Below the pieces are notes generated by a model. It was not told where the DNA came from. It saw only the letters and a list, made by a program, of their open reading frames with translations, and did not search any database. Positions 521-14,772 of a stretch of DNA of 23,452 bases are shown in pieces. Origin of the DNA: a virus; IMG/VR virus record IMGVR_UViG_3300011254_000156, positions 822-24,273 of that record; one strand, 5' to 3'. Position 1 is the stretch's first letter. Every line of letters begins with the position of its first letter. The translations under genes and the position numbers were made by a program.

Positions 521-636
521 TTAAAAAATTTATTAAATTTATTAAAAACTTATTTAAACCTGAACTTCAAGAAATAATAGAAGAAGATCGTAAAGTAAAA
601 AAAATACGTAGAAAATATAAGGAGAGTTCTGAATAA
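517..636 (+). CDS. Small basic protein, 39 aa, unknown function
   Basis: ATG at 517 overlaps the preceding TGA in an ATGA arrangement, and the stop TAA (634-636) overlaps the adaptor start (TAATG), so the frame fits exactly between two real genes. The product starts MIKKFIKFIKNLFKPEL, an amphipathic Lys/Phe/Ile helix, then becomes a charged Glu/Arg/Lys helix ending in ESSE. The first helix has Lys on one face and Ile/Phe/Leu on the other and could bind membrane or another protein; this is inference. The last codons carry AAGGAG, which serves as ribosome binding site for the adaptor gene, so translation of the two genes is probably coupled. No family recognised. A leader-only role is possible. 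Confidence 0.6.
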   Translation: MIKKFIKFIKNLFKPELQEIIEEDRKVKKIRRKYKESSE

Positions 637-1280
637 TGACTTATGCAGAATTAGTACAAAAAATCAGCGATTATACGGAGGTAGATAGTAATGTATTAAC
701 TACTACTATTGTAAACGGTTTTATTGAAAATGCTGAATTTAGAATTTTTAGAGATGTAGATTCTGATAATAATAGAAGATATGCTACAGCTAATTTAGTT
801 ACAAACGACAGGTTTATTTCTACTCCAAGTGATGCTTTAGTAATTAGATCTGTTCAAATAGTGAACGGTGGTTCAGGATCCACGAGAAATTTTTTAGAAT
901 TTAGAGATACAAGTTTTATGTCTGAATTTAATTCTACAGGAGTTACTGGAGAACCTAAATATTACGGTATGTGGGAGGATGATAAAATGGTTTTAGCACC
1001 TACTCCTAACTCAACATATCAAGTTCAAGTTAATTATATCTTGAAAGACCCAGGTTTATCTAGTACAAATACACAAACATACTTGAGTAAGTATTTTCCC
1101 AACGGACTTTTGTATGCATGTTTAGTCGAAGCTTTTAGTTTTTTAAAAGGACCAGCAGATCTTTTACAATTATATGAAGGACGATATAAACAAGCAATGC
1201 AAGGGTTTGCTACAGAACAAATGGGAAGAAGAAGACGTGATGAATACCAGTCAGGTGTTCCTCGTGTCGGAGGAAAATAA
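636..1280 (+). CDS. Head-tail adaptor protein (SU10-type)
   Basis: The 214-aa product opens with MTYAELVQKISDYTE, then alternates helices with a beta-rich middle (FISTPSDALVIRSVQI, GEPKYYGMWEDDKMVLAPTP, YQVQVNYILKDPGLS) and ends in a helical region with a basic tail (GRRRRDEYQSG). This order matches the adaptor proteins of podoviruses such as phage SU10, which sit under the portal ring and connect it to the tail nozzle. The P-S/T-D-A-L-V-I-R and W-x-D-D-K-M-x-L-A-P-x-P stretches are the family-like parts. Start: TAATG overlap with the upstream gene, with AAGGAG about 12 nt before. An adaptor here, with a nozzle-type protein downstream, supports a short-tailed virion. The family assignment is from memory of sequence style, not from a search. 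Confidence 0.72.
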   Translation: MTYAELVQKISDYTEVDSNVLTTTIVNGFIENAEFRIFRDVDSDNNRRYATANLVTNDRFISTPSDALVIRSVQIVNGGSGSTRNFLEFRDTSFMSEFNSTGVTGEPKYYGMWEDDKMVLAPTPNSTYQVQVNYILKDPGLSSTNTQTYLSKYFPNGLLYACLVEAFSFLKGPADLLQLYEGRYKQAMQGFATEQMGRRRRDEYQSGVPRVGGK

Positions 1281-1290
1281 GAGATAAATT

Positions 1291-1743
1291 ATGGCTATAA
1301 CACAAGCAATCGCAAATGCATTTAAAAAACAATTATTAGAAGGTGACCACAATTTTAAACAATCAGGTGGTGATAAATTTAAGCTAGCTCTTTACACTTC
1401 TTCAGCAACTCTAAACTCAACTACAACTGCCTATGCATCTACTAACGAAATTAGTAACACAGGAACTTATGCAGCTGGTGGTGGAGCTTTAGTTAACAGC
1501 GGTACTTCTATTGGTTCAGGAACTGGTAAAGGTGTTGCTATTGTTGATTTTGCAGATTTGTCGTTTACTTCGGCAACAATTACAGCAAGAGGTGCATTAA
1601 TCTATAATACATCTTCAGCTACAACCAATGCAGCTGTTGCAGTATTAGATTTTGGAGCAGATAAAACTAGTACGTCAGGGACTTTCACAGTTGTATTTCC
1701 AGCATTTACAACTTCAGCAGCTATATTGAGAATCTCTGGTTAG
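1291..1743 (+). CDS. Beta-rich virion structural protein, unknown role
   Basis: The 150-aa product begins with an amphipathic helix (AITQAIANAFKKQLLEGDHNF), then KFKLALYTSSATLNSTTTAY and several Gly/Ser/Thr-rich strands, ending FTVVFPAFTTSAAILRI. This layout (short helix, F-K-L-A-L-Y-T-S strand, Gly-rich loops, final hydrophobic strand) recurs in small structural proteins encoded near adaptor and fibre genes of marine phages as I recall them; I know of no established role. It may be a decoration, neck or tail-attachment protein. It sits 10 nt after the adaptor and 9 nt before the giant fibre, so it is co-transcribed with both. The ribosome site is weak (AAGAGA). There is no signal peptide or membrane segment. 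Confidence 0.6.
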   Translation: MAITQAIANAFKKQLLEGDHNFKQSGGDKFKLALYTSSATLNSTTTAYASTNEISNTGTYAAGGGALVNSGTSIGSGTGKGVAIVDFADLSFTSATITARGALIYNTSSATTNAAVAVLDFGADKTSTSGTFTVVFPAFTTSAAILRISG

Positions 1744-1752
1744 GAGTATTAA

Positions 1753-4700
1753 ATGGCGTTAGTAATACATGACAGAGTAAGAGAAACCTCTACTACAACA
1801 GGTACAGGTAATTTTACATTAGCAGGAGCCGTTCAAGGTTTTGAAACATTTTCTAGTGCAATAGGAAATGGCAATACAACTTATTATGCAATCGTTAACC
1901 AAGCAAATTCAGAATTTGAAGTTGGTCTTGGAACGGTATCAGCAGGTGTTTTAGCAAGAACAACACCTATTACTTCATCAAACTCAAACAATGCTGTAAA
2001 CTTTTCAGCAGGTACAAAAGATGTATTCTGTACTCTACCTGCAACAAAGGCAGTTGTAGAAGATGCAAACAGTGATGTCACTCTTCCAGCAGATTTAAAT
2101 GTTGCTGTAAATTTAGATGTTGATGGTCTTACTACAACAGATGGAATAACTAATGCTGGTAATTTTTCTACAGATGGCGGCTCAATAAAATTAGATGGTA
2201 ATTATCCTACAGGAATAGAAAACGTTGCTTTAGGTGACACTGCTTTGGATAGTGTTCAATCAGACGGTAATTGTAATGTTGCTGTAGGTAGTAAATCTTT
2301 AACAGCTTTGACTACAGGAGATAATAATGTAGGAATTGGAGTATTAGCTTTGGCTGCTACTACAACAGCTTCTAACAATGTTGCTGTAGGTAGAAAAGCC
2401 ATGTGTACTAATATAACAGGTTTTTCAAATGTAGCTATCGGTATTCAATCTTTAGAACAAAACACAACAGGTGGAAACAATACAGCAGTTGGTACTCAAA
2501 CTCTAAAAGTTGCTACCACAGGCGCTGCAAATGTTGGTGTAGGTATTTGTGCTCTAGGCACTCTAACTACAGCCGCAGGTAATGTTGCAATGGGTTATCA
2601 TTCTTTAAAAGTAAACACTGCTAGTTATAATACAGGTTTAGGATATGAAACATTATTATCAAATACTTCAGGTGAATCTAACACAGCAATAGGTTCTTGT
2701 TCTTTAAGAGCAAACACTACAGGCTCTGGCAACACAGGTGTTGGTCTACGTTCAGGTTGCACAAATCAAACTTCTGATTCTAATACCTCTATGGGTCAAG
2801 ATTCTTTAAGACATAATACAGGTGGTTGTAATACTGCTATTGGTAGAAATGCAATGGAAAACAACACGACAGGTTCAACTAATGTTGGAGTTGGAGTAAA
2901 CACACTCATAGCCAATACTACAGGTAATGCTAGTGTTGCAATCGGTTGTGATGCCATGTGTAAAAATACTACAGGAGGAACAAGCGTTGCAATTGGTAGA
3001 AGTGCATTATGTAGTAACGTAACAGGTTCTGCAAACTCAGCTGTTGGTTATCAGGCTCTTAGAAAAAACACAGCTTCACATAATACAGCAGTAGGAGATA
3101 GTGCTTTAGGTCTTAACACATCAGGAGAGTTTAATGTAGGTATAGGTAGTGGCAATTTAGATGCTAATACTACAGGAGATAATAATACTTCTGTAGGTGC
3201 TTTTAGTTTAACACTCAATACTACAGGACACTGTAATACTGCTGTTGGACAAGAAGCGTTAGGTGACAATACCACAGCATCAAACAACACTGCAATTGGA
3301 TTTAATTCAATGTGTGGTACCACGACAGGGTGTAAAAATACATCAGTTGGTTCTTTATCAATGTGTTTAAATACAGAGGGTTGTCAAAATGCAGCTTTTG
3401 GTCATCAATCTTTACTATCAAATACGACAGGAGATAATAACACTGGACTTGGACAAAATGCTTTATATACTAATAGTACAGCAAACAACAACACAGCTGT
3501 TGGTAAAAGTGCTTTACTTTCTAATACTACAGCTTCTGATAGTACAGCTATGGGTTTTTGTGCTTTAGGAAGTAGTACAGGTTGCAGGAATACAGCAATT
3601 GGATCTTGTTCTTTAAAAGCTAACACAACAGGTACTCACAACGTTGCTTCTGGTTATGCATCTTTGTTTGCTAATACAGAGGGAATAAAAAACACTGCTT
3701 ATGGATATAGTTCTTTAGGTGCTAACACTACAGGAGATAACAATGTTGCGGTAGGTTGTGGTTCTTTAGGTGGAAACACAACAGCAAATAATAACACAGC
3801 TATTGGATTTGATTCTTTAAAAGCTAACACAACAGGTGCATCAAATGTAGCAGTTGGTTATCTATCTTCAAATAGTAACACAACAGGTCTTGCTAACACT
3901 TCTGTGGGTACTAATTCTTTAGAAGATAATACTACAGGTACTCTTAATGTAGCAATAGGACAAGAATCACTTCGTAGAAATACTACAGCTAGTAATAACG
4001 TAGGTGTAGGTTATTTATCTTTATGTGCTAATACAACAGGAACTCCTAACGTAGCAGTTGGTAATAACGCACTAACAGCAAACACAACAGCTGGTAATAA
4101 CGTAGCTGTTGGAAATCAAGCTCTATGTAAAAATACAACAGGTTCAACAAACTCTGCTTTAGGTGGTAATTCATTATGTGCTAATACTACAGGAACAGGA
4201 AACACAGCAGTCGGTTATGATGCTTTACTTTTAAATACCACAGCAGGTAATAACACAGCTATGGGTTTAAATGCAATGCGTGCTAACACAACAGGTGCTG
4301 GTAATGTTGTTGTGGGTGCATATGCTTTAGACGCAAATCAAGTTGGAGCTTGTAATGTTGCAATAGGTAGAAGTGCCTTAACTGCTACTACAGTAGGTAA
4401 TCAAACAGCAGTAGGTGCTTGTTCATTATTTCAAAACACAACAGGTCATTCAAATACTGCAGTTGGTTATTTATCTTCTAAAGTATTAACAACAGCTTGT
4501 TATACTACTTCTTTGGGTAGACAAGCACTTGAAAGCACTACAACAGGAAATAATGTAACTGCTGTGGGTTATCATTCTTTAAAAGCTAATACAATAGGAG
4601 ATGGTAATACAGCTGTAGGTGTTTGTTCTTTAGTTGCAAATACTGAAGGAGGTGCTAGTTCAGCAGTTGGTTATCAAGCTATTGTAGCAAATACTACAGG

Positions 4701-6969
4701 ACATAGTCATGCTGCTATAGGTTACAGATCTTTATGTTCTAATACAACAGGTACTTATAATACGGGTTTAGGTAAAGAAGCTCTAGCAAAAAATACATCA
4801 GCAGGTAATAACACGGCTGTAGGATATAGGTCTGCATATTCTAATACAACGGGTGCAAATAATGTAGCACTAGGTGTTTTTTCTCTATGTTTAAACACAA
4901 CAGGAGGCCATGGTGTAGGAATTGGAAGATCAGCACTTCAATCTAATACTACAGGTTGTTGTAATGTAGGTGTGGGTTTTGCTGCACTACTTGATAATAC
5001 CGAGGGTGACAATAACACAGCTATTGGAGAGTGTGCTTTATCAAATAATACTACAGCCGACCTTAATACAGCAGTAGGTGCTTTTAGTTTATTTACAAAT
5101 ACTACAGGAACAAAAAATACGGCAGTTGGTAAAAGTTCTTTAGCAAGTAACACTACAGGTGATTGTAATACTGTATTAGGTGTAGATGCTTTAACAAATA
5201 GTACAACTGGATATAATAATGTAGCAATTGGAGTATCAGCTTTAGCATCAAATACAATAGGAAACCAAAGTGTAGCCATTGGGTATAAAGCCTCATGTTC
5301 AAATACAGAGGGTTTTAAAAATATTGCTGTTGGTCAATGTGCTTTGTTAAACAATACTACAGGAGATGAAAATACAGCAATTGGTTTTAAATCTTTAATG
5401 ACAGGTACAGACGTAAAAAGAAACGTAGCTATTGGTTGCCATGCGTTATGTGCTAATACTGCTAACGATAATATAGCAATAGGTGTTGAAGCACTGAAAG
5501 CTAATACTTCTGGTACTTCAAACACAGCTGTAGGTAGAGCGGCATTACTTGTTAACACAACAGGTACTGACAATATTGCTTTAGGAAGATCAGCTTTAGT
5601 AAAAAATACAGAGGGAAATTGTAACACAGCAGTTGGTGGTTCAAATAGTTTAGCTTGTAATATAACAGGATGTCGTAATACTGCATTAGGTCATTCGGCT
5701 TTATGCTCTAACACAACAGCTAATAACAACACAGCAGTTGGTGTTAATGCTATGCTAAAAAATACAACAGGTTCTACTAATACAGCTTTAGGTTATTTAT
5801 CTTTATGTAATAATGTGACAGGTGCTTCTAATACAGCTGTTGGACATGGTAGTTTAAGAAATACTACAGCTGATTGCAACACAGGAGTTGGAAATGATGT
5901 CTTAAATGCTAACACTTCAGGTTCTAATAATACAGCATTAGGTACATGTGCTTTAGGTGTCAACACATCAGGTGCTAACAATACAGCAGTTGGTAGAAAT
6001 TCTTTAGACGCAAACACAACAGGTCAAAAAAATACAGCAGTTGGTCAAGGTGCATTAGGTGCTAATACAGAGGCTAATGATAATACAGCTGTAGGTAATT
6101 CTGCTCTAACAGCTAACACAACAGGTACAAAAAATACAGCAGTAGGTGTTAATGCTTTAACAGCCAATACAACAGCAGATAATAATGTTGCAATAGGTTG
6201 TGGTGCTTTACTTACTAACACTATAGGTGCAGAAAATGTAGCAGTAGGTAACTCTTCTTTATGTGCAAATACTGAAGGTACTAATAACACAGCACTAGGT
6301 CATCTTGCACTTAGAACAAACACAACAGCAGATAATAACACCGCAGTTGGTATGAGTGCTCTAACAGCTAACACAACAGGTGGAGATAACGTAGCTGTTG
6401 GAATTAATTCTTTATTAAATAACACGACAGGTTCATACAATGTTGCAGTGGGTTGTAATGCTTTATGTACTCAAACAATAGCAACTAATAACACAGCAAT
6501 TGGTAAAAATGCTGGTAGAAGTGTGACATCAGGAGATGAAAATATAATGTTGGGAGTTGATGCTGGTCGTAGTATCTCTCCCTTTGAAGTAACAGACCAA
6601 GATCATAGAGTTGTTATAGGTAATAATACTGTTACAAACGCTTACATAAAAGTAGCATTTACAGTAACATCTGATTTAAGAGATAAAACTAATTTTGGTG
6701 AAGTTCCACATGGATTAGATTTTGTTAATAAATTAAATCCTGTCTCATTTCAATTTAAAAAATCAAGAGAAGATGAAACTCCAACAGGAGATTTAAAATA
6801 TGGATTTAAAGCACAAGATATTCTTAAACTTGAGGGAGATAATAATGTTATCATTGATACAGAAGAACCACATCATTTAAAATATAAAGGTGAACATTTA
6901 GTTCCTGTATTAGTAAACGCAATAAAAGAATTGACAAAAAGAGTAAAAGAATTAGAAGATAAAGAATAA
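1753..6969 (+). CDS. Giant tail fibre with 17-residue repeats and S74 chaperone
   Basis: A 1738-aa fibre with three parts. Residues 1-110 (ALVIHDRVRETSTTTGTGNF and following) look like a conserved virion-anchoring domain. Residues about 155-1607 are some 86 tandem copies of a 17-residue unit, consensus N-T/V-A-V/I-G-x-x-S/A-L-x-x-N-T-T-G-x-x, which resembles the left-handed beta-roll (Hep/Hag-like) repeats of YadA-type trimeric adhesins. A few copies are 16 or 18 residues. Residues about 1635-1738 are a Peptidase_S74 (endosialidase-type) intramolecular chaperone. The S-D-L-R-D-K motif gives the expected catalytic Ser1640 and Lys1645, and a final coiled coil (LVNAIKELTKRVKELEDKE) would hold the trimer. 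In this family the chaperone folds the trimer and cuts itself off at the serine. About 45 cysteines lie in the repeats, which is unusual. The ribosome site TAGGAG is made by the upstream stop codon. The target is probably a host surface receptor (inference). Confidence 0.88.
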   Translation: MALVIHDRVRETSTTTGTGNFTLAGAVQGFETFSSAIGNGNTTYYAIVNQANSEFEVGLGTVSAGVLARTTPITSSNSNNAVNFSAGTKDVFCTLPATKAVVEDANSDVTLPADLNVAVNLDVDGLTTTDGITNAGNFSTDGGSIKLDGNYPTGIENVALGDTALDSVQSDGNCNVAVGSKSLTALTTGDNNVGIGVLALAATTTASNNVAVGRKAMCTNITGFSNVAIGIQSLEQNTTGGNNTAVGTQTLKVATTGAANVGVGICALGTLTTAAGNVAMGYHSLKVNTASYNTGLGYETLLSNTSGESNTAIGSCSLRANTTGSGNTGVGLRSGCTNQTSDSNTSMGQDSLRHNTGGCNTAIGRNAMENNTTGSTNVGVGVNTLIANTTGNASVAIGCDAMCKNTTGGTSVAIGRSALCSNVTGSANSAVGYQALRKNTASHNTAVGDSALGLNTSGEFNVGIGSGNLDANTTGDNNTSVGAFSLTLNTTGHCNTAVGQEALGDNTTASNNTAIGFNSMCGTTTGCKNTSVGSLSMCLNTEGCQNAAFGHQSLLSNTTGDNNTGLGQNALYTNSTANNNTAVGKSALLSNTTASDSTAMGFCALGSSTGCRNTAIGSCSLKANTTGTHNVASGYASLFANTEGIKNTAYGYSSLGANTTGDNNVAVGCGSLGGNTTANNNTAIGFDSLKANTTGASNVAVGYLSSNSNTTGLANTSVGTNSLEDNTTGTLNVAIGQESLRRNTTASNNVGVGYLSLCANTTGTPNVAVGNNALTANTTAGNNVAVGNQALCKNTTGSTNSALGGNSLCANTTGTGNTAVGYDALLLNTTAGNNTAMGLNAMRANTTGAGNVVVGAYALDANQVGACNVAIGRSALTATTVGNQTAVGACSLFQNTTGHSNTAVGYLSSKVLTTACYTTSLGRQALESTTTGNNVTAVGYHSLKANTIGDGNTAVGVCSLVANTEGGASSAVGYQAIVANTTGHSHAAIGYRSLCSNTTGTYNTGLGKEALAKNTSAGNNTAVGYRSAYSNTTGANNVALGVFSLCLNTTGGHGVGIGRSALQSNTTGCCNVGVGFAALLDNTEGDNNTAIGECALSNNTTADLNTAVGAFSLFTNTTGTKNTAVGKSSLASNTTGDCNTVLGVDALTNSTTGYNNVAIGVSALASNTIGNQSVAIGYKASCSNTEGFKNIAVGQCALLNNTTGDENTAIGFKSLMTGTDVKRNVAIGCHALCANTANDNIAIGVEALKANTSGTSNTAVGRAALLVNTTGTDNIALGRSALVKNTEGNCNTAVGGSNSLACNITGCRNTALGHSALCSNTTANNNTAVGVNAMLKNTTGSTNTALGYLSLCNNVTGASNTAVGHGSLRNTTADCNTGVGNDVLNANTSGSNNTALGTCALGVNTSGANNTAVGRNSLDANTTGQKNTAVGQGALGANTEANDNTAVGNSALTANTTGTKNTAVGVNALTANTTADNNVAIGCGALLTNTIGAENVAVGNSSLCANTEGTNNTALGHLALRTNTTADNNTAVGMSALTANTTGGDNVAVGINSLLNNTTGSYNVAVGCNALCTQTIATNNTAIGKNAGRSVTSGDENIMLGVDAGRSISPFEVTDQDHRVVIGNNTVTNAYIKVAFTVTSDLRDKTNFGEVPHGLDFVNKLNPVSFQFKKSREDETPTGDLKYGFKAQDILKLEGDNNVIIDTEEPHHLKYKGEHLVPVLVNAIKELTKRVKELEDKE
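2215..6573 (+). repeat. About 86 diverged 51-bp tandem repeats (17 aa each)
   Basis: Period 51 bp, in frame. The unit encodes a strand N-T-A-V-G, a turn with S/A-L, then N-T-T-G. By manual splitting I count about 86 units, with 16-residue units for example at the SNTAVGHGSLRNTTAD copy and one 18-residue unit (CNTAVGGSNSLACNITGC). Copies differ at many codons, so this is old or diversified protein repetition, not a fresh DNA expansion, although short shared stretches such as AACACAACAGGT are frequent. All length changes keep the frame. Confidence 0.9.
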
Positions 6970-6984
6970 ACGAAAGGAAACATA

Positions 6985-7866
6985 ATGTTAAATACGTACG
7001 TCGTAGAAGGTGGTGTTGGTAAATGTACTGCATTCACTGCTTTACTACCTAAATTAAAGAAAAAATCAGAGGTGCAAATATATACACCTTACATAGATTG
7101 TTTTGCAGGAAACCCTGATGTTAAACTTGCATTAGAACAAACTATACCGTTACAAGATCCAAGAATTATGGCATCTGATAATATTTATTATTCAGAGCCC
7201 TACAAATCAAATTTTCAATTTGGTAAACAACATCTTATTGAAAGTTATTGTGAACATCATGGCGTCAAATATGATAAATCAATGACACCTAAATTACATA
7301 CAGAACAACACAAAGCATCTGTTAATAAATGGTTAGGCGATAATAATATTGGTAAATATATTATGATTCAGTTATCTGGTGGTCAAGCTAAGTGGAATTA
7401 TGCAGATGGTGTTCAATATCAAAACATAAACCCCAATAGAAATTATCAACCCTTTTTAGCACAACAATTAGTTAATATGCTTAGAGAAGAGTATAAAGAT
7501 ACAACTATTATAAATTGTGTATTACCTAACGAACCACATTTTAATGGTACAATTAGATGTGATTTACACTGGGCCGAGATTCATGAAATGTTAAAAGGAT
7601 CTGAAGGGTTCGTTAGTATTGATAGTTGTTTACAACATTTTTCAGCATCGACCAAGACTCATGGTGTTGTGATATGGGGTTCAACAAGATGGACTCAGTT
7701 TGGTTATTCTCACAATAAAAACCTACATTTTCATATGGGAAAAGAGTGGGATGAAACTAAATTTATTGATAGTGATCCAAGAAATAATATGGTAGAACCT
7801 CAATTAATTATTGATAATTTTAAAAAATTAGATAAAACCAAAACTGTTGCATGTGCAACAAAATAA
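6985..7866 (+). CDS. GT9-like (GT-B fold) glycosyltransferase
   Basis: The 293-aa product resembles the heptosyltransferase/GT9 family, which transfers activated sugars and has a GT-B fold. The N-terminus has the Gly-rich turn GGVGKCTAFTALLPKLKK (residues 9-26) followed by strand-loop text ending in a G-N-P-D-V element, as in phage and bacterial GT9 proteins. The C-terminal half has S-I-D-S-C-L-Q-H (211-218) and V-V-I-W-G-S-T-R-W (about 228-236), corresponding to the family's D-S-x-x-x-H and loss-or-gain W/F-G-x-T motifs of the nucleotide-sugar pocket. The ribosome site GAAAGGAAA lies 15 nt after the fibre stop. The acceptor is unknown: host lipopolysaccharide, or the fibre encoded just upstream. 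No signal peptide, so the protein should be cytoplasmic. Confidence 0.72.
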   Translation: MLNTYVVEGGVGKCTAFTALLPKLKKKSEVQIYTPYIDCFAGNPDVKLALEQTIPLQDPRIMASDNIYYSEPYKSNFQFGKQHLIESYCEHHGVKYDKSMTPKLHTEQHKASVNKWLGDNNIGKYIMIQLSGGQAKWNYADGVQYQNINPNRNYQPFLAQQLVNMLREEYKDTTIINCVLPNEPHFNGTIRCDLHWAEIHEMLKGSEGFVSIDSCLQHFSASTKTHGVVIWGSTRWTQFGYSHNKNLHFHMGKEWDETKFIDSDPRNNMVEPQLIIDNFKKLDKTKTVACATK

Positions 7867-7878
7867 GGAGAAACTAAT

Positions 7879-8127
7879 ATGAGTGAAGTAAGAAACGCTG
7901 AACAATTAGCACAAGACTATACAGCTATGGGTCATTCTGTAGATTTAATCAATGGTATCATTGATGGTTCTAAAATGGCTAGTGAATCAGCTGAAGATAG
8001 ACAAAATTGTGTTGACAGAAACGTTGAGCATTTAGAGATTATGGTTGCTAAAACTGATTGGGGAAGTGAAGATATGACTGCCACTAATTCAGCTATCACT
8101 GCAGGCAAAGCATACACAGCTAGCTAG
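7879..8127 (+). CDS. Small helical protein, 82 aa, unknown function
   Basis: An acidic, probably all-helical protein with no recognised family: RNAEQLAQDYTAMGHSVDLI, a short linker GSKMASESAEDRQNCVDRN, then VEHLEIMVAKTDW and a Thr/Ala-rich end. It has a strong ribosome site, AAGGAG at 7865-7870, overlapping the stop of the glycosyltransferase gene. Its position between a glycosyltransferase and two tail proteins suggests a virion or assembly role, but nothing in the sequence proves it. The stop TAG forms part of the next gene's TAGGAG ribosome site. Confidence 0.6.
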   Translation: MSEVRNAEQLAQDYTAMGHSVDLINGIIDGSKMASESAEDRQNCVDRNVEHLEIMVAKTDWGSEDMTATNSAITAGKAYTAS

Positions 8128-8138
8128 GAGTCTAACTA

Positions 8139-8516
8139 ATGGCTTTTGGTATAAACGCTTTCGCACAAAGTGCGTTTTCATCATTAGTCAATAATAATAG
8201 TTCGCCTATATTGACTGGTATACCTCTTGCTATGCAAGAAGGTAATACCACTGTTACTGCCAATGCTGATGTAAATGTTACTGGTATAGCTCTTGCTATG
8301 CAAGAAGGTAACGCAACTGTTATTGGAAGTGCTGTAGTTGATTTAACTGGAATTGGTTTTGCAGCAACATTAGGAACTGCAAACGTTGTTATATGGACAC
8401 AAGTTCCAACAGGACCTGTACAGACATTTACACCAGTCAACACAGGACCAGTGCAAACTTATACTGAAGTTAGTACAGGAAATGCTCCTACTTCAGGTTA
8501 TTATCCAGTGTCTTAA
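8139..8516 (+). CDS. Repeat-built structural protein, 125 aa
   Basis: The product is almost entirely internal repeats. Residues 25-46 and 47-68 are two near-identical 22-residue units (T-G-I-x-L-A-M-Q-E-G-N-x-T-V), and a third, diverged unit spans 69-90. They are followed by an 11-residue repeat T-G-P-V-Q-T-F/Y-T-x-V-N/S at 91-101 and 102-112, and a short tail ending GYYPVS. Alternating Val/Thr/Ile and regular Gly predict stacked beta strands. Similar T-G-x-x-x-x-x-x-x-G-x-x-x-V repeats occur in marine phage virion proteins in my recollection; the role is not known. The ribosome site is TAGGAG at 8125-8130. It may be a tail-surface or fibre-attachment protein. Confidence 0.6.
   Translation: MAFGINAFAQSAFSSLVNNNSSPILTGIPLAMQEGNTTVTANADVNVTGIALAMQEGNATVIGSAVVDLTGIGFAATLGTANVVIWTQVPTGPVQTFTPVNTGPVQTYTEVSTGNAPTSGYYPVS
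8214..8408 (+). repeat. 66-bp direct repeats (22 aa) inside 8139-8516
   Basis: ACTGGTATA at 8214 and again at 8280 starts two copies that share CTCTTGCTATGCAAGAAGGTAA almost without change, 66 bp apart. A diverged third copy starts near 8346. The near identity of the first two at silent positions, in contrast to the diverged third, points to a recent duplication or conversion. Confidence 0.8.
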
Positions 8517-8520
8517 TAAA

Positions 8521-8549
8521 TTGACACTGCTAAACAAATTTAATATCAT
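8521..8549 (+). promoter_or_regulatory. Putative sigma70 promoter upstream of second fibre gene
   Basis: TTGACA (8521-8526) is a perfect -35 box. Exactly 17 nt further lies TATCAT (8544-8549), a 5/6 match to the -10 consensus. It falls in the 56-nt gap between the stop at 8516 and the ATG at 8573, one of the few true gaps in the window, and would start transcription near 8556, leaving a short leader with TAGGAA as ribosome site. In AT-rich DNA chance -10 boxes are common, but a perfect -35 at ideal spacing in an intergenic gap is not. Confidence 0.55.
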
Positions 8550-8572
8550 GCACTAATTTAGGAATTTAAAAT

Positions 8573-10093
8573 ATGGCTAATACTTTTTCAGACGATTTAA
8601 AACTCACAGTTCAAGGAACAGGAGATAATGCTGGAACTTGGGGTCAAATTACTAATACCAATTTACAAATTGTAGAACAAGCAATAGGTGGATTTGAAGC
8701 AGTTGGAATTACTTCAGGTGCAACTTTATCTTTTACTGATGGAACAAAATCTAATGGTAAAAATCAAGTATTAAAATTAACAGGAACTATATCTGGAAAC
8801 GTTAATGTAATAGTTCCAGATGCTGGTTCAGGAACAGCTCCAGAAAAAACTTATATTGTAGAAAATGCAACAACAGGAGCACACACTGTAACTTTTAAAA
8901 CAACTTCAGGAACAGGAGTTACTTTTAGTGCAACTGATAAAGGTAAAAAAATACTATATTCTGACGGAACTAATATTGTTGAAGGTGTAACTTCAGTAGG
9001 AAATTTAACTACAGGTACTGTTACTGCTACTGGTAATATAACTACTACTGGTACTATAACTTCTACAGGATCAGTTTCAGGTCCTTTAAATGCAGATAAT
9101 CTTACCAGCGGGACAGTGCCCGATGCTCGTATTACAGGGTCTTACACAGGTCTAACAAATTTAACTATGTCTGGAGATTTAACAGTCGACACAGATACTT
9201 TGGTTGTAGATGCTTCTGCAAACACTGTTGGTATTAACACTGCAAGTGCTGCAAGAGCTTTGCATGTAGTAAGTTCTCAAGAAATTGTTGCACGACTAGA
9301 ATCTTCAGGAGCTGCTTCAAGATTAAAATTAATAGATTCAGGTACAACATCTAGTGGAAATGCACCAATTCTTTCTAGTGCAGGAGATTTATTTATACTG
9401 AATACAGGAGGTTCAGAACGTCTTAGAGTTTTAGCTAATGGAAATGTTGGGATCGCAAACACAAATCCGTCCGAAAAATTAGAAGTAACAGGAACTGTTA
9501 AAGCCACAGCTTTTGAAGGTGATGGTTCTGCATTAACAGGTATTAGTGCAGGTTTAGTAAATCTAGGAACAACAAGTGTTTCTTCTGCTTCTACAATTAC
9601 TATAACACTGCCTTCTACATATAAAAAATTTTTTGTTACTGTTACTGGTCTTAAAGGAAGTGGAGGTGTTGGTGTTCATCCTAATGTGCAATTTGGAGTT
9701 GGTGGCACTATACAAACTTCTAGTTTATATTATCAACAAGGTTTTCAATACAAAGGTTCAGGAGCTGGAAGTCCAGTAGTTACATCTGAACTAATAGTTG
9801 GTAATCTTGCTGGCAATTCATATATTGCTTTAGGACATCAAAATATGTATAATACTAATAGTTATAGAAATTTTAATGCACAATTTGAAATAGAAACAGG
9901 TACATCTTCATCAAATCCTGGTTTGAATTTTAATACTTTTGGAAATGTTGGAACCTCTACCGCTGATAATTATGTTGCTAGCGGAAGAGCAGCGTATAGA
10001 GACTTTGTTACAATTGATAGAATTCAACTTACTATCAGTAATGGATCAAGTTGGGATGCAAGTGGAAGTGTAACAGTTTGGGGATTAATATAA
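8573..10093 (+). CDS. Second tail fibre protein, 506 aa
   Basis: The N-terminus (ANTFSDDLKLTVQGTGDNAGTWG, then N-T-N-L-Q-I-V-E-Q-A-I-G-G) is the type of virion-attachment domain seen on many phage fibres. The middle is Gly/Thr-rich strand repeats (TTGTVTATGNITTTGTITST), followed by the fibre motif N-G-N-V-G-I-x-N-T-N-P-S-E-K-L-E-V-T-G (starting near residue 289) and F-E-G-D-G-S-A-L-T-G-I. The last 170 residues form a separate beta domain (TLPSTYKKFFVTVTGLKGSG to VTVWGLI), probably the receptor-binding tip. There is no S74 chaperone at the C-terminus, unlike the fibre at 1753-6969. It has its own putative promoter at 8521-8549, and its stop overlaps the next start (TAATG). Confidence 0.8.
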   Translation: MANTFSDDLKLTVQGTGDNAGTWGQITNTNLQIVEQAIGGFEAVGITSGATLSFTDGTKSNGKNQVLKLTGTISGNVNVIVPDAGSGTAPEKTYIVENATTGAHTVTFKTTSGTGVTFSATDKGKKILYSDGTNIVEGVTSVGNLTTGTVTATGNITTTGTITSTGSVSGPLNADNLTSGTVPDARITGSYTGLTNLTMSGDLTVDTDTLVVDASANTVGINTASAARALHVVSSQEIVARLESSGAASRLKLIDSGTTSSGNAPILSSAGDLFILNTGGSERLRVLANGNVGIANTNPSEKLEVTGTVKATAFEGDGSALTGISAGLVNLGTTSVSSASTITITLPSTYKKFFVTVTGLKGSGGVGVHPNVQFGVGGTIQTSSLYYQQGFQYKGSGAGSPVVTSELIVGNLAGNSYIALGHQNMYNTNSYRNFNAQFEIETGTSSSNPGLNFNTFGNVGTSTADNYVASGRAAYRDFVTIDRIQLTISNGSSWDASGSVTVWGLI

Positions 10094-10302
10094 TGAAATA
10101 TAATTGTATAGATGGAAAACTTGTTGAAATGACAGCTGAAGAAGAAGCAGAATTTGATGCTTCTATAATTCAGGCACAAGAACAAGAACAAAAAATAAAA
10201 GATGCTCAGGCAGCAAAAGAAGCTAAAAAAACGTCTGGTAAACAAAAACTATTGGATTTGGGTCTAACTGAAGAAGAAGTAAACGCTCTTATTGGTAATT
10301 AA
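10093..10302 (+). CDS. Small acidic/helical partner of the tail fibre, 69 aa
   Basis: The start is placed at ATG 10093, which overlaps the fibre stop as TAATG. An in-frame ATG further upstream at 10051 lies inside the fibre gene and would add 14 residues unlike the family. The product MKYNCIDGKLVEMTAEEEAEF continues as a charged Gln/Glu/Lys/Ala coiled coil and ends KQKLLDLGLTEEEVNALIGN. Small proteins of this shape (short strand, M-T-A/P-E-E-E, coiled coil, final L-T-E-E-E-V-x-A-L helix) follow tail fibre genes in many phages and are thought to be fibre-assembly helpers or attachment proteins. That role is inferred from position and shape. Confidence 0.65.
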   Translation: MKYNCIDGKLVEMTAEEEAEFDASIIQAQEQEQKIKDAQAAKEAKKTSGKQKLLDLGLTEEEVNALIGN

Positions 10303-10354
10303 ACAATTTTAGTTTACACTTTATAGTTACAATAAAATGGAGTACATTGTGTAA

Positions 10355-12286
10355 ATGTTACAAAAACTTAATTTCAAACCAGGTTTCAATAAACAAGTCA
10401 CAGAGTCAGGAGCTGAATCTCAATGGACAGATGGAGATTTTGTTAGATTTAGATATGGACTACCAGAAAAAATAGGTGGTTGGTCACAACTTACATCAAA
10501 TACTTTACCTGGTGCAGCTAGAGCACAGCATGCTTTTGCTAGTTTAGCAGGAGAAAAATATGCAGCTATTGGAACAAATAAAGGTTTATTCTTATATTAT
10601 GGAGGAAATTTTTTTGATATTACTCCTTTAGACACAGCTATAACAGGAGCAACTTTTACAGTAACATCTGGATCAGCTACTGTTACTGTTAACAAAACAA
10701 ATCATGGATTATCTGATGGTGACTACATAACTTTTTCAAGTGTAACTAGTCCTACAAACTCTGGTTATGCTACTACTTTATTTACAGATAATTCTTTTGA
10801 AGTTTTAAATTCACAAGCAAATACTTTTCAAATTACAATGCCATCAAATTCTGCAGGTGCTAGTAGTGCTACTGGTGCTGGAACAATTGATCCATATGTA
10901 ACAGTTGGTCCAGCTGTTCAAACCGCTGGTTATGGTTGGGGTACATCTACATGGGGAGCAGGCACTTGGAATACTCCTAGATCAACTAGTAATGTAGTAT
11001 TGGATCCAGGTCTTTGGTCTTTAGATAATTTTGGTCAAGTTCTTATTGCAACTATACACAATGGTAAAACATTTACATGGAATGCAGGAGCAGCTAATGC
11101 AAGAACAGTTAGAGCTTCAACATCAACATCTGGTTTTTCTACGTCAGCTAATCCAACGGCAAGTAGATTTACTTTAGTATCAGATAGAGATAGACACGTA
11201 TTTCATTTTGGAACAGAAACAACTATTGGAAATACATCAACACAAGATCCAATGTTTATTAGATTTTCTGATCAAGAAAATTTAAATGACTATACTCCAA
11301 CAGCAACAAACACTTCAGGTACATTTAGATTAGATACAGGTAATGAGATTAGAGGAGCTATTCAAGGTAAAGATTATACTTTAGTTTTAACAGATAGCGC
11401 TGCTTATATAATTCAGTTTATAGGAGCACCTTTTACATTTAGTGTAAGACAAGTAGGTACTAACTGTGGACTTATTGGTCAAAGTGCTTTGAGTTATTCT
11501 AATGGTAGAATTTTTTGGATGTCGGGCGAAGGTGGATTTTTTGTCTATGATGGTACAGTTAAAATGTTGCCGTGTCTTGTTGAAGATTTTGTATTTACAA
11601 CAGGAGGAAATAACTTAGGTATTAATTACACTTCTGCAGGAATAACGTATGCAGAACATAATAGTCTATATAATGAAGTTAGTTGGTTTTATCCTAAAAG
11701 TGGTTCTTCACAAATAGATAGATGTGTTTCATATAATTATGGTGAAAATTGTTGGACAACTAGTTCTCTTTCACGATCTACATATATAGATCAAGGAGTA
11801 TTTGATTTACCTTATGCAACTGAATTTAATAAAACAGCAACACCTGTATTTGATATACAAGGTATAACTAATACATCAGGAGCTAGTACATATTATGAAC
11901 ACGAAAAAGGAACTGATCAAGTAAATGCATCTGGAACTTCTTCTATAAACGCTTTTATTAGATCAGGAGATTTTGATATAACAGGCAGTAGAGATTCTGT
12001 AAGTTATAGAGGTGATGGAGAATTTTTTATGTCTGTAAAAAGATTTATACCAGATTATCAGTTAATTAGTGGTAATTCAAAAGTTACTATATTTATAAAT
12101 GATTATCCAAATAATACAGCTACAAGCTCACCACTTGGACCCTTTACAGTTAATGCTTCTACTGATAAAATAGATACACGTGCCAGAGGACGATTAGTTT
12201 CTCTTAAAATAGAAAACGATGCTGTAGGTGAAACATGGCGTTATGGTACATTTAGACTTGATGCAAAACCAGATGGACGTAGATAA
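10355..12286 (+). CDS. Nozzle/tail-hub type protein
   Basis: The 643-aa product opens LQKLNFKPGFNKQVTESGAE and continues with W-x-D-G-D-F-V-R-F-R-Y-G-L-P-E-K-I-G-G-W. This is the signature opening of podovirus tail proteins annotated as P22 gp10-like or nozzle proteins, which close the short tail and are beta-propellers with inserted domains. An inserted beta module with N-H-G-L-S-D-G-D-Y-I-T-F spans about residues 105-170. Propeller-like strands follow, for example LVSDRDRHVFHFG, F-I-R-F-S-D-Q-E-N and RIFWMSGEGGFFVYDG. The C-terminus is WRYGTFRLDAKPDGRR. GGAG at 10339-10342 is 12 nt before the ATG, a rather long spacing. With the adaptor at 636-1280 it gives a complete adaptor-nozzle pair. 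Precise homology to gp10 or gp12-type proteins needs a structure-based search. Confidence 0.7.
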   Translation: MLQKLNFKPGFNKQVTESGAESQWTDGDFVRFRYGLPEKIGGWSQLTSNTLPGAARAQHAFASLAGEKYAAIGTNKGLFLYYGGNFFDITPLDTAITGATFTVTSGSATVTVNKTNHGLSDGDYITFSSVTSPTNSGYATTLFTDNSFEVLNSQANTFQITMPSNSAGASSATGAGTIDPYVTVGPAVQTAGYGWGTSTWGAGTWNTPRSTSNVVLDPGLWSLDNFGQVLIATIHNGKTFTWNAGAANARTVRASTSTSGFSTSANPTASRFTLVSDRDRHVFHFGTETTIGNTSTQDPMFIRFSDQENLNDYTPTATNTSGTFRLDTGNEIRGAIQGKDYTLVLTDSAAYIIQFIGAPFTFSVRQVGTNCGLIGQSALSYSNGRIFWMSGEGGFFVYDGTVKMLPCLVEDFVFTTGGNNLGINYTSAGITYAEHNSLYNEVSWFYPKSGSSQIDRCVSYNYGENCWTTSSLSRSTYIDQGVFDLPYATEFNKTATPVFDIQGITNTSGASTYYEHEKGTDQVNASGTSSINAFIRSGDFDITGSRDSVSYRGDGEFFMSVKRFIPDYQLISGNSKVTIFINDYPNNTATSSPLGPFTVNASTDKIDTRARGRLVSLKIENDAVGETWRYGTFRLDAKPDGRR

Positions 12287-12450
12287 TGGCTAAAATAAGT
12301 GTATACATACCTGAACCACAAGAAGAATATAGTTCTGAAAATCAAAGACAAATATTAGAATCTATTGATACTGTAAAAAATCAACTTAACTTTGCTTTTC
12401 AACAAGACTTAAAACAAGAACAAGATATATTTAACTATTTCATGTCATGA
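12286..12450 (+). CDS. Small protein, 54 aa, unknown function
   Basis: ATG at 12286 overlaps the nozzle stop (TAATG), and the TGA at 12448-12450 overlaps the next start (ATGA), so the frame fills the interval exactly. The product begins AKISVYIPEPQEEYSSENQR and continues as a Gln/Asp/Phe-rich amphipathic helix (QILESIDTVKNQLNFAFQQD, ending DIFNYFMS). It may trimerise through the helix or bind the adjacent tail proteins; I know of no function. The packing of both ends strongly suggests it is a real gene. Confidence 0.68.
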   Translation: MAKISVYIPEPQEEYSSENQRQILESIDTVKNQLNFAFQQDLKQEQDIFNYFMS

Positions 12451-12782
12451 CAATACAATACAAAAGCGCTACATTTGATTTAACATCTACTAATGCAACA
12501 ACAGTGTTGTCTATATCAACATCCGCTATTGCAATTGTTAGAACTGTACAAGCGGTCCATGATACAGCCAGCAATGTAGATACACATTTAATATTAAAAA
12601 AATCAGGTGCATCTGATGTTAAAATAGCTTATAAAGAAATTAATAAAGATACAGATAGCATGTTAACAGGACCATTAAACTTAGAAGCAGGTGATGCTAT
12701 TAAAATGCAAGCAGGAACTGCAAATGAAATAACAGGGTCTGTTAGTTATGCCTTAATAGATAGATCACAGGAGAATGGATAA
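12447..12782 (+). CDS. Small beta-sandwich structural protein, 111 aa
   Basis: TIQYKSATFDLTSTNATTVL opens a protein with regular alternating strands, T-H-L-I-L-K-K-S-G, a loop (KEINKDTDSMLTGPLNLEAG), then D-A-I-K-M-Q-A-G-T and a final strand SVSYALIDRSQENG. The L-x-L-E-A-G-D-x-I-x-x-x-A pattern is typical of small phage virion proteins with a jelly-roll or Ig-like fold (decoration or tail-tip components). I cannot assign a specific family. ATGA overlap with the gene before and TAATG overlap with the gene after make translational coupling likely. Confidence 0.6.
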   Translation: MTIQYKSATFDLTSTNATTVLSISTSAIAIVRTVQAVHDTASNVDTHLILKKSGASDVKIAYKEINKDTDSMLTGPLNLEAGDAIKMQAGTANEITGSVSYALIDRSQENG

Positions 12783-13009
12783 TGTCAGATGATCTACTTA
12801 AAATACATTGTACAACTACAGTTACAATAAGAAACACAAGAAAGAACAAAATATATGCTAACGAAACAGAAAGAGATGCTGATGTAGCTGATCCTAATAC
12901 AGATACAACAATTGATGATATTGAACAAGACGTTAGAGTAGAAATATCACCAAAAGGATTAGAAGCATTAAAAAGAGTGATGAACCAAAACAATGAATCA
13001 AACACCTAA
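12782..13009 (+). CDS. Small acidic protein, 75 aa, unknown function
   Basis: The N-terminal strand region (DLLKIHCTTTVTIRNTRKNK) is followed by an Asp-rich stretch (DADVADPNTDTTIDDIEQD) and a helix (SPKGLEALKRVMNQNNESNT). It looks like a small structural or assembly protein with no recognised family. The start overlaps the previous stop (TAATG), and the last 17 nt overlap the glycosyltransferase that begins at 12993. The Asp-rich loop could bind calcium, but no canonical EF-hand spacing is present. Confidence 0.55.
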   Translation: MSDDLLKIHCTTTVTIRNTRKNKIYANETERDADVADPNTDTTIDDIEQDVRVEISPKGLEALKRVMNQNNESNT

Positions 13010-13925
13010 AGGTGGGACAGAGTTACAATTAGGTTTTTTAAATAAATATGTAGATAAAGATCTACTAAATAAATTTTCTATTTGTACATCGGTTCCTGAA
13101 AAAATACCTCTTGATAAAGATAAGATAAATATCTTATGGCAAAAAAATTCATACGATCAACCTAATCTTGCACCATGGTTCACGGACCACGGCAATCATG
13201 ACAAGTATGATTGGTATGTATTTAACAGTCATTGGACATTTGAAAAATTTAGAATAGCTTTTGATTTACCAACTAGTAAATGTGTTGTTATAAAAAATGG
13301 TATAGAAAAAATAGAACCAACAACACCTTATGTAAAAGGTCAACCTATAAAGATCATACATCAAAACACACCTTGGAGAGGACTAAATGTTTTATTAGGT
13401 GCTATGCAATTAGTAAAAAATCCATTAATTACTTTAGATGTATATTCTTCTACAGAAGTTTACGGTAAAGACTTTCATAAGGCTAATCATAAATTTTATG
13501 AAACATTGTACGAGCAAGCTGAAACATTATCTAATGTAAATTACATAGGTTACAAACCTAACGAGTATATAAAAAAGCATATTAAAGATTATCAGATGTA
13601 TGTATATCCTAGTATCTGGGAAGAAACATCTTGTATATCATTACTAGAATGTATGGCAGGTGGTTTGTATTGTATTACAACTAATCTAGGTGCATTGTTT
13701 GAAACAGGTGCTGAGTTTCCAATATATGTTCCATATCTAACAGACCACAAGCAGTTAGCTAGAAAATTTGCAAATGCAATAGAAGCTGCAGCGTTGACTT
13801 TAGATAATAAGATTATACAAGAACATTTACAGTTTCAATCAAAATACACTAATCAATATTATAATTGGAATAAACAAGCAATGGCCTGGACTAATTTTTT
13901 AAAAGGAGCAATTAATGCAAAATAA
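12993..13925 (+). CDS. GT4-type glycosyltransferase
   Basis: A 310-aa GT-B fold retaining glycosyltransferase, shorter than the usual 350-400 aa. The N-terminus NQTPKGGTELQLGFLNKY holds the Gly-rich K-G-G-T-E motif of GT4 enzymes. The middle (FNSHWTFEKF, VIKNGIEKIEP) and H-Q-N-T-P-W-R-G-L-N-V-L-L match the start of the second Rossmann domain. The E-x7-E nucleotide-sugar signature is E-E-T-S-C-I-S-L-L-E (Glu211 and Glu219), followed by C-M-A-G-G and T-N-L-G-A-L-F-E. The enzyme should be cytoplasmic, with no membrane segment. The start overlaps the upstream gene by 17 nt, and the C-terminal end overlaps the next glycosyltransferase by 11 nt, so the two are co-translated. The substrate is unknown. 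Confidence 0.85.
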   Translation: MNQTPKGGTELQLGFLNKYVDKDLLNKFSICTSVPEKIPLDKDKINILWQKNSYDQPNLAPWFTDHGNHDKYDWYVFNSHWTFEKFRIAFDLPTSKCVVIKNGIEKIEPTTPYVKGQPIKIIHQNTPWRGLNVLLGAMQLVKNPLITLDVYSSTEVYGKDFHKANHKFYETLYEQAETLSNVNYIGYKPNEYIKKHIKDYQMYVYPSIWEETSCISLLECMAGGLYCITTNLGALFETGAEFPIYVPYLTDHKQLARKFANAIEAAALTLDNKIIQEHLQFQSKYTNQYYNWNKQAMAWTNFLKGAINAK

Positions 13926-14772
13926 TGAACCCATATGGTTTGGCGAAGAATCAGAAAGTATAGAAATAAATTTAAGTGGAGAACCCAAATATAAGATTAT
14001 GGTTTGTACACCATGTCATAGTGATGTTTCAATGCATTACTGTCAGTCTGTATTAATGTTTCAACAAAAATGTTTAAAGAAAAATATATTAGTTAGTTTT
14101 ACAATGTTAAAATCATCTTTAGTTACACAAGGAAGAAATCTATGTGTATCAGATTTCTTGAACCACGAACATAATTATGAGCATTTATTGTTTATAGATT
14201 CTGACATAGACTTTGAATTTGATACCATAATGAAAATGATAAAAGCTGACAAAGATATTATTGCCTGTCCTTATCCTATGAAAAACTATGATGTAGATAA
14301 GGCATGGAAAAGATTAAAAGAAACAGACATGGTTAAGACTAAAGAAGACTTACTTGCCAATGGTCTTATGTATCCAATGAAAGTAAAGGACAGAAAGAAC
14401 ATAGAAGTCAAAAAGGGCATTATGGAAGTAACCCATGCTCCTACGGGATGTATGCTAATCAAGAGAGAAGTGTTGGAAAAAATGATTAAAAAACACCCTG
14501 AATTAGAGATATTTCAACCAACAATTATTAACGGAAAAGAAATAAAAAGGGAGAATTTTTTTAATTTATTTGATACACTACATGACGTAAAAACCAAAAG
14601 ATATTTTGGTGAAGACTTCGGATTTTGTCAAAGATGGAGAGATATGAACGGTAAGATACACGCTCTTGTAACTGAATATATAACCCATGTTGGGGAGTAC
14701 CAATACAAAGGTCGTTTCTTTGATGAACTATTAAGTCTTAAACATATTGACGACACAGAAAAAACCAAATAA
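13915..14772 (+). CDS. GT-A fold glycosyltransferase (GT2/Anp1-like)
   Basis: A 285-aa protein starting with YKIMVCTPCHSDVSMHYCQS (near residue 26), then S-L-V-T-Q-G-R-N-L-C-V-S-D-F-L and L-L-F-I-D-S-D-I-D-F-E. The D-S-D (Asp95-Asp97) is the metal and nucleotide-sugar binding DxD of GT-A transferases. H-A-P-T-G-C-M-L-I-K-R-E-V and Y-F-G-E-D-F-G-F-C-Q-R-W (G232-E-D-F) match the acceptor/catalytic end of this phage-borne family. It overlaps the GT4 gene by 11 nt, with AAGGAG just inside that gene as ribosome site. Proteins of this shape are frequent in marine phage genomes. Target sugar and acceptor are unknown. Confidence 0.8.
   Translation: MQNNEPIWFGEESESIEINLSGEPKYKIMVCTPCHSDVSMHYCQSVLMFQQKCLKKNILVSFTMLKSSLVTQGRNLCVSDFLNHEHNYEHLLFIDSDIDFEFDTIMKMIKADKDIIACPYPMKNYDVDKAWKRLKETDMVKTKEDLLANGLMYPMKVKDRKNIEVKKGIMEVTHAPTGCMLIKREVLEKMIKKHPELEIFQPTIINGKEIKRENFFNLFDTLHDVKTKRYFGEDFGFCQRWRDMNGKIHALVTEYITHVGEYQYKGRFFDELLSLKHIDDTEKTK

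Follow-up and report, generated by a model that had tools for sequence, protein, structure and literature searches.

A repeat fibre of a marine phage lies beside a GT9-like glycosyltransferase gene, and the cysteine pattern of its shaft follows that gene

A repeat fibre gene and a transferase gene on a pelagiphage backbone

The DNA analyzed here, which we call the window, is the whole stretch of 23,452 nt at positions 822-24,273 of IMG/VR record IMGVR_UViG_3300011254_000156, itself a 24 kb fragment. The structural genes of the window are those of HTVC023P/HTVC027P-type pelagiphages, with their order kept. Since several genes share 72-73% DNA identity with HTVC027P (window 632-1742, 10352-12289 and 12279-14726), the backbone is of HTVC027P type and points to a podovirus-like pelagiphage. 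Its relatives suggest SAR11 bacteria as the probable hosts of this marine phage. A GT1-type (PF00534) glycosyltransferase-like gene at 12993-13925 and a weakly Anp1-like one at 13915-14772 are found in the HTVC027P region too. The features on which the rest of this work centers are as follows.

1753..6969, + strand: fibre gene, 1738 aa, with an N-terminal anchor, a shaft of 17-residue repeats and an S74 tip
1753..2214, + strand: conserved N-terminal part of 154 aa, presumed to anchor the fibre to the virion; the array behind it diverges at once
2221..6540 (aa 157-1596), + strand: shaft of 85-86 tandem 17-residue units
6541..6966, + strand: C-terminal tip, including the Peptidase_S74 (intramolecular chaperone) domain at aa 1640-1692 (nt 6670-6828)
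6985..7866, + strand: GT9-like glycosyltransferase, 293 aa, proposed shaft decorator, starting 15 nt past the fibre stop codon
7879..8127, + strand: 82-aa protein, small ORF after the transferase

Another small ORF, at 8139-8516, contains a 66-nt tandem duplication whose copies are 80% alike (8214-8350).

The N-terminal part of the fibre is 97-99% identical at the protein level in its closest relatives. At the other end, the Peptidase_S74 profile PF13884 scores 36 bits (cut-off 22, E 8e-9), and it matches all 38 fibre relatives. The Ser-Lys pair for self-cleavage lies in an SDxRDK motif (SDLRDK in the window), and S1640 and K1645 are invariant in the 38 sequences. Profiles PHROG 23837, 6002 and 4636, which stand for phage virion structural and tail-spike proteins, match the window repeats with 1024, 747 and 688 bits (E 0 to 3e-206). 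Thus, 17-residue-repeat fibres with an S74 tip are an already known kind. The first-pass annotation had supposed that few phage fibres carry such arrays, yet similar sequence occurs in 117 phage records, including cyanophages, roseophages and Bacillus phages, and other arrays reach 85-137 units. The longest seen, on a 173 kb contig (L273:6420), has 137 units and no surface Cys; a different contig has five consecutive repeat-fibre ORFs with a single transferase (L031:3929-13892). NCBIfam gave no name for the window fibre, and a search with the full fibre found no solved structure related by sequence. The C-terminal profile matched solved structures weakly, best in its S74 part to a phage neck-appendage protein (3gud, E 0.034).

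The shaft is an old array of units predicted to form one solenoid coil each

A full profile counts 85 units and a profile blanked at variable positions 86, spaced by 17 residues in 75 of 84 cases, by 16 in 7 and by 18 in 2. These counts bear out the first-pass annotation of about 86 units of 17 residues at 2215-6573, with boundaries agreeing within one unit, and its observation that indels keep the frame, as every change in spacing is of whole residues. Self-identity of the fibre at a shift of 17 residues is 0.405, far above the maximum of 0.133 across all shifts in 200 shuffles; thus the array is not due to chance. The unit consensus is N-T/V-A-V/I-G-x-x-A/S-L-x-x-N-T-T-G-x-N, with Gly at position 5 invariant (85/85 units) and positions 12-14 mostly N/T/T.

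The array had also been described as uniform, which is true of the protein but not of the DNA, where units average 55% identity however far apart they lie and no exact repeat is longer than 25 nt. Third bases of like codons agree between units at a frequency of 0.558, and codon usage alone gives 0.525. Taken with the 55% identity, this closeness indicates old units that are near saturation. Long antisense ORFs within the array (- strand; 3051-3323, 4938-5279, 5334-5627 and 6045-6290) are probably by-products of its codon make-up.

We modeled single chains with AlphaFold2, using the last eight repeats plus the tip together with 37 relatives (C-terminal model) and the first repeats (N-terminal model). 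In the C-terminal model, strands step exactly 17 residues, with pLDDT of about 85-93 over the better repeats; the S74 part was poor. The coil per unit envisaged in the first-pass annotation is therefore what structure prediction gives, and a solenoid of one strand-turn coil per 17-residue unit is well supported by modeling.

The likeness to Hep/Hag repeats fared less evenly. With VIA-align, the top rank for the C-terminal model went to YadA-type heads (1p9h, Z 15.3, rmsd 3.6, 160 aligned; 7o23, Z 14.1, rmsd 2.1, 133 aligned). For the N-terminal model, whose repeats are of the same type, right-handed helices came first (5w6f, Z 10.6, rmsd 2.2, 119 aligned), so that the two models do not agree on handedness. 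Foldseek with the C-terminal model returned no match below E 0.6. The YadA-head motif GxNSVAIG (PMC9543794) can be placed on the unit in one register, with a fit that 46 of 100,000 shuffled motifs equal. Pfam YadA_head (PF05658) did not match the window protein at E 10 and matched 1 of the 38 fibre relatives (E 0.2). We therefore do not assign the repeats to YadA_head/Hep_Hag by sequence, the period being 17 rather than 14 and the profile unmatched; the SP8 fibre copy carries a Hep_Hag annotation from its depositors. The left-handed parallel beta-roll heads of YadA, BpaC and UspA1 share with the window the coil per repeat, GxNSVAIG at one register and a variable repeat number. They differ in their period of 14, and the window sequence is a phage fibre of period 17 with an S74 tip and no Pfam match. 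The rise of 4.8 Å per layer of YadA-type rolls (PMC9543794), if it applies here, gives a shaft of about 41 nm, which does not bear out the suggestion of a very long one.

Arrays differ through blocks of units exchanged between phages

Among relatives whose N-terminus resembles that of the window fibre, arrays that are complete, or close to it, number 63, 72, 84-86 and 93 units; the complete ones span 72-93. Close relatives thus differ in repeat number, and by whole units. In two contigs, L060 and L061, the upstream genes and anchor are as in the window (97-99% protein identity), and the first units are unrelated to those of the window. Farther along come blocks of 20-30 units that match the window in order and at 97-99% identity, with foreign units between them and offsets of +204 nt (4 units) or +1020 nt (20 units). 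Overall, blocks shared between phages are 95-100% identical and bordered by unrelated units. The opposite arrangement occurs in L003 and L004, where the tip and 8 kb downstream are 96% like the window and the array is unrelated.

In these data, recent tandem duplication does not account for changes in array length, as nearly all arrays lack any pair of units with at least 90% DNA identity; within the window, no pair exceeds 80%. Short-read metagenomic assembly may lose tandem duplicates, a caveat on their absence; in the array of P-SSM2, an early isolate genome rather than a metagenome, we saw no recent tandem duplicates either. From the ordered shared blocks, the foreign units and the near-absence of recent duplicates, we infer that each array is a mosaic, assembled from blocks that divergent arrays have exchanged. 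The earlier proposal that length varies is thus borne out, the differences being of whole units; simple repeat recombination within one array is not supported, since blocks are shared between phages.

Within collinear blocks we rejected diversifying selection at exposed positions: pN/pS was 0.30 for the variable positions and 0.29 for the core, indicating purifying selection on both alike. Cys residues at variable positions were kept in 94 of 99 comparisons, a rate not distinguishable from that of other residues (p 0.25). Tail fibres that are hypervariable between nearly identical genomes have been described in metaviromic islands of marine phages, with a conserved N-terminus and a specific repeat stretch as in the window fibre (PMC3909814). 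Beyond this, the window array is a mosaic of exchanged blocks and is paired with a conserved transferase.

The transferase gene accompanies the repeats rather than the tip

The transferase scores 18.1 bits against PF01075 (GT9), and the HTVC112P enzyme 22.1, with the Pfam cut-off at 22. Among named models, those for LPS heptosyltransferases match it best (TIGR02193, E about 1e-3). A C-terminal IDSxxxH...WG motif is kept across divergent transferases. A PDB sequence search with the transferase profile found no relative, TibC and other solved GT9 enzymes included. Since the window enzyme lies below the family cut-off and has no PDB relative, its GT9-like fold and its sugar are putative.

In the best 80 of 226 viral contigs the transferase is 81-99% identical while the array is not conserved. 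We picked these 80 loci, which form 58 clusters at 97% DNA identity, by the transferase alone, and 75 of them were testable for pairing. Directly upstream of the transferase, 70 of the 75 have a 17-residue-repeat fibre. The remaining five comprise three repeat fibres with a non-S74 end, one frameshifted repeat fibre and one locus without (L181), so that a repeat fibre lies upstream in 74 of 75 once the exceptions are examined, on podovirus and siphovirus backbones. Because the transferase loci include repeat fibres with non-S74 ends, the pairing follows the repeats and not the S74 tip. In L144, from the same contig as L052, a frameshift-broken repeat fibre lies beside an intact transferase (2-2378), either by sequencing error or as a pseudogene.

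About 103 transferase loci have HTVC027P-like backbones and 18 HTVC111P-like ones. Among 50,697 phage records the enzyme occurs only in HTVC111P, HTVC112P and AG-345-L05, and a search of 84,980 genomes for bacterial homologues found one locus, L292, which is itself phage-like. Window 6611-8134, which holds the fibre end and tip, the transferase and the small ORF, shares 77-80% DNA identity with HTVC111P and HTVC112P, whose other genes are of long-tailed phage type (tape measure, minor tail protein) and otherwise unrelated to the window. In two contigs (L062 and L076), the anchor and transferase are kept and the tip is of another type. Tip, shaft, transferase and backbone thus move as modules between unrelated SAR11 phages.

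Cysteine at variable unit positions co-varies with the transferase

The window shaft contains 46 Cys (3.2%), compared with 0-0.6% in the large structural proteins of the window and about 1% in other large ORFs of these loci. Of these, 43 fall at unit positions 6, 7, 10, 16 and 17 (5, 9, 17, 6 and 6, respectively), which are variable and probably exposed. We noticed the Cys signal post hoc, in the composition of units with and without the gene, when the set without the transferase was small. For this reason, we re-scored it on more loci with the profile blanked at variable positions. In 81 arrays with the transferase, Cys makes up 7.8% of positions 6, 7, 10, 11, 16 and 17 (lowest array, 4.2%); in 34 arrays without it, the median at the same positions is 0. 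Core positions are nearly free of Cys in either class. Arrays that lack the transferase often have Tyr at some of these variable positions (6, 10 and 17).

Three outlier arrays looked Cys-rich without the gene. A profile search located a divergent transferase elsewhere on the AG-345-L05 record (E 1.2e-10), and a GT9 search of L051 found another, 56% identical to that of AG-345-L05. The third, L022, is a fragment whose contig stops at its fibres. This divergent, or B-type, transferase is 26-27% identical to that of the window. A fresh test drew on 80 loci chosen by the divergent transferase alone which, with L292, made 81 examined. Of these, 49 hold 17-residue arrays within 10 kb, and the arrays are Cys-rich (0.056-0.24), the sole exception being one extra array of 7 units (L352).

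Pooling the arrays gave 137 Cys-rich and 1 poor with the gene, and 1 rich (L022) and 31 poor without it (Fisher 1e-31, with rows that are not independent, L051 and L220 reclassified by a gene located elsewhere on the record, and the class without the gene searched over whole length for some records). The poor array with the gene is a third fibre of L184 (0.032), and rich arrays without the gene all lie on contigs that end nearby. Of 22 named phages scored, HTVC111P, HTVC112P and AG-345-L05 alone are Cys-rich, the same three that have the enzyme. The PHROG 23837/6002/4636 fibres of Prochlorococcus phage P-SSM2 and Bacillus phages SPO1 and SP8 have the same repeat and chaperone tip as the window, but surface Cys is absent or nearly so and there is no such transferase; P-SSM2 has a weak GT9-like match, yet its fibre is Cys-free. 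A tree built from 140 S74 tips requires 13 changes of Cys state, at least 8 of which are forced by supported branches, and the state follows the transferase gene. We found no earlier description of a link between a transferase and exposed Cys in the literature searched; our case for it comes from comparative sequence analysis.

The B-type loci have further enzymes. A sulfotransferase lies within 3 kb of the divergent transferase in 78 of 83 loci (L277, L283, L292 and B-type L293-L372), and 67 of the 83 have a carbamoyltransferase. Together with the transferase, these genes are as expected of a glycan-building cassette. The 82-aa protein occurs in 122 of 129 A-type loci and 7 of 83 B-type loci, and we rejected it as a general partner of Cys-rich arrays since most B-type loci lack it. 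L292 is a phage-like contig that was binned with a Flavobacteriaceae MAG. There (6681-13052), collagen-like fibres adjoin the divergent transferase, and 15 of the 19 copies of their repeat have Cys before TEEY; these may be another type of fibre that bears the same putative modification.

A fibre shaft that may be glycosylated by the phage

The simplest reading of these results, given that the gene tracks the repeats rather than the tip, that Cys is the residue that differs and that Cys mostly occurs singly in a unit, is glycosylation of the shaft, most likely on Cys. We propose, with slightly better than even confidence, that the window encodes a trimeric host-recognition fibre whose beta-solenoid shaft is glycosylated by the neighboring GT9-like enzyme, most likely on Cys. 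The N-terminal part would anchor the fibre to the virion, each of the 85-86 units would form one coil of the shaft, and the S74 tip would drive trimer folding and then probably be cleaved off. Inside the infected cell, the enzyme would glycosylate the shaft, with exposed Cys at unit positions 6, 7, 10, 11, 16 and 17 as the most likely acceptors of an S-linked sugar. The sugar may shield the fibre or serve adhesion to the host, and block exchange between phages would alter both how long the array is and where the acceptor residues lie.

The enzyme might instead modify host LPS, for superinfection exclusion or receptor masking, as in the published reading of pelagimyophage glycosyltransferases near tail fibres (PMC7029224). 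It would then travel with the fibre only because the two act on a common receptor, and the Cys would have another role. The LPS heptosyltransferase models that match best fit this account, as does infection of one and the same Pelagibacter strain (HTCC7211) by HTVC111P and HTVC112P. However, modification of a receptor predicts linkage to the tip, and the gene keeps to the repeats where the tip is of another type or lacks S74. A residue-specific link to shaft Cys in two divergent enzyme groups is also left unaccounted for, and we consider LPS as the target unlikely. The pelagimyophage study further reports rfaE, an ADP-heptose pathway gene, in those phages (PMC7029224).

The enzyme could instead glycosylate the shaft on Ser, Thr or Asn, for example within the NTT at positions 12-14 found in most units, with Cys serving, for instance, to cross-link the trimer. 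Known enzyme-adhesin pairs do use Ser (PMC4358343). Yet Ser plus Thr at positions 13 and 14 differs little, at 83 and 76% in arrays lacking the gene and at 90 and 85% (type A enzyme) or 78 and 72% (type B) in those with it, and Cys is the residue that differs; we regard acceptors other than Cys as distinctly unlikely.

Alternatively, the Cys could form disulfides that stiffen the shaft, with the transferase link inherited rather than functional. Adjacent units do share Cys above the shuffled expectation at position 7 (49 versus 32.5) and position 16 (26 versus 12.5), as would be seen in a disulfide ladder too. Against this, two Cys in one unit are rarer than chance across the 81 arrays (206 versus 258 expected; 16 versus 42 for positions 7 and 10 of one unit), most Cys-bearing units hold a single Cys, 42 of the 81 arrays hold an odd number, and the changes of state forced on the tip tree follow the gene. 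The Cys statistics of the arrays yielded no disulfide pairing rule, and we see a slim chance that disulfides explain the pattern.

We give very little credence to descent plus a host effect, by which SAR11 phages would share fibre, gene and Cys from a common pool with no functional link: Cys-rich arrays are mostly from marine contigs, many probably of SAR11 phages, and the rows are not independent, but enzymes only 26-27% identical with different repeat consensuses (NNFFG..AG versus NTAVG..AL) share the pattern, the sister tips L056 and L250 differ in both Cys state and gene, and so do L038, L046, L047 and L048 inside a Cys-rich clade.

The proposed shaft glycosylation by the neighboring enzyme would have counterparts in known systems. 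The pair would work as do autotransporter heptosyltransferases that decorate beta-helical adhesins, such as TibC, which modifies Ser of TibA; known enzymes of this group use Ser, not Cys (PMC4358343). As in TibC-TibA and AAH-AIDA-I (PMC4358343), the transferase gene of the window, with its putative GT9-like core, adjoins the gene of a repetitive fibre, here one predicted to be a beta-solenoid. Unlike those pairs, which have Ser acceptors and act at the cell surface, the window pair is proposed to use Cys on a phage virion, and it has no iron finger. In TibC, this finger comprises C339, C342, C358 and C370 (PMC4358343). Its C-x-x-C pair is absent from 34 aligned transferases, so we do not class the enzyme as a TibC-like BAHT. 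As summarized in PMC12363180, which cites Freeman et al. 2023, mycobacteriophage enzymes glycosylate the phage's own virion proteins, as we propose for the window phage. The targets named there are capsid and tail tube, rather than the fibre shaft proposed here, and the enzyme family is another one.

It is quite possible, though we would stop short of calling it probable, that unrelated marine and possibly freshwater tailed phages use a dedicated GT9-like enzyme to add sugars to fibre-shaft Cys, that the Cys pattern of a shuffled array acts as a sugar code and that a second group adds a sulfotransferase and a carbamoyltransferase for further decoration of the glycan.

The transferase and the Cys pattern, both absent from the first-pass annotation, are the most informative features of this locus, and the array illustrates how repeat shafts change through block exchange between phages. 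Repeat fibres of this type are widespread and commonly regarded as passive shafts. The link between transferase and Cys offers a testable alternative to the LPS reading (PMC7029224), in which the phage glycosylates its own receptor-binding fibre. Sulfur-linked glycosylation is known chiefly from small bacteriocins (PMC12139839). If our proposal is true, it would provide a new enzyme for modifying beta-solenoid proteins and would alter the view of host range and of the virion surface in some of the most abundant viruses in the ocean.
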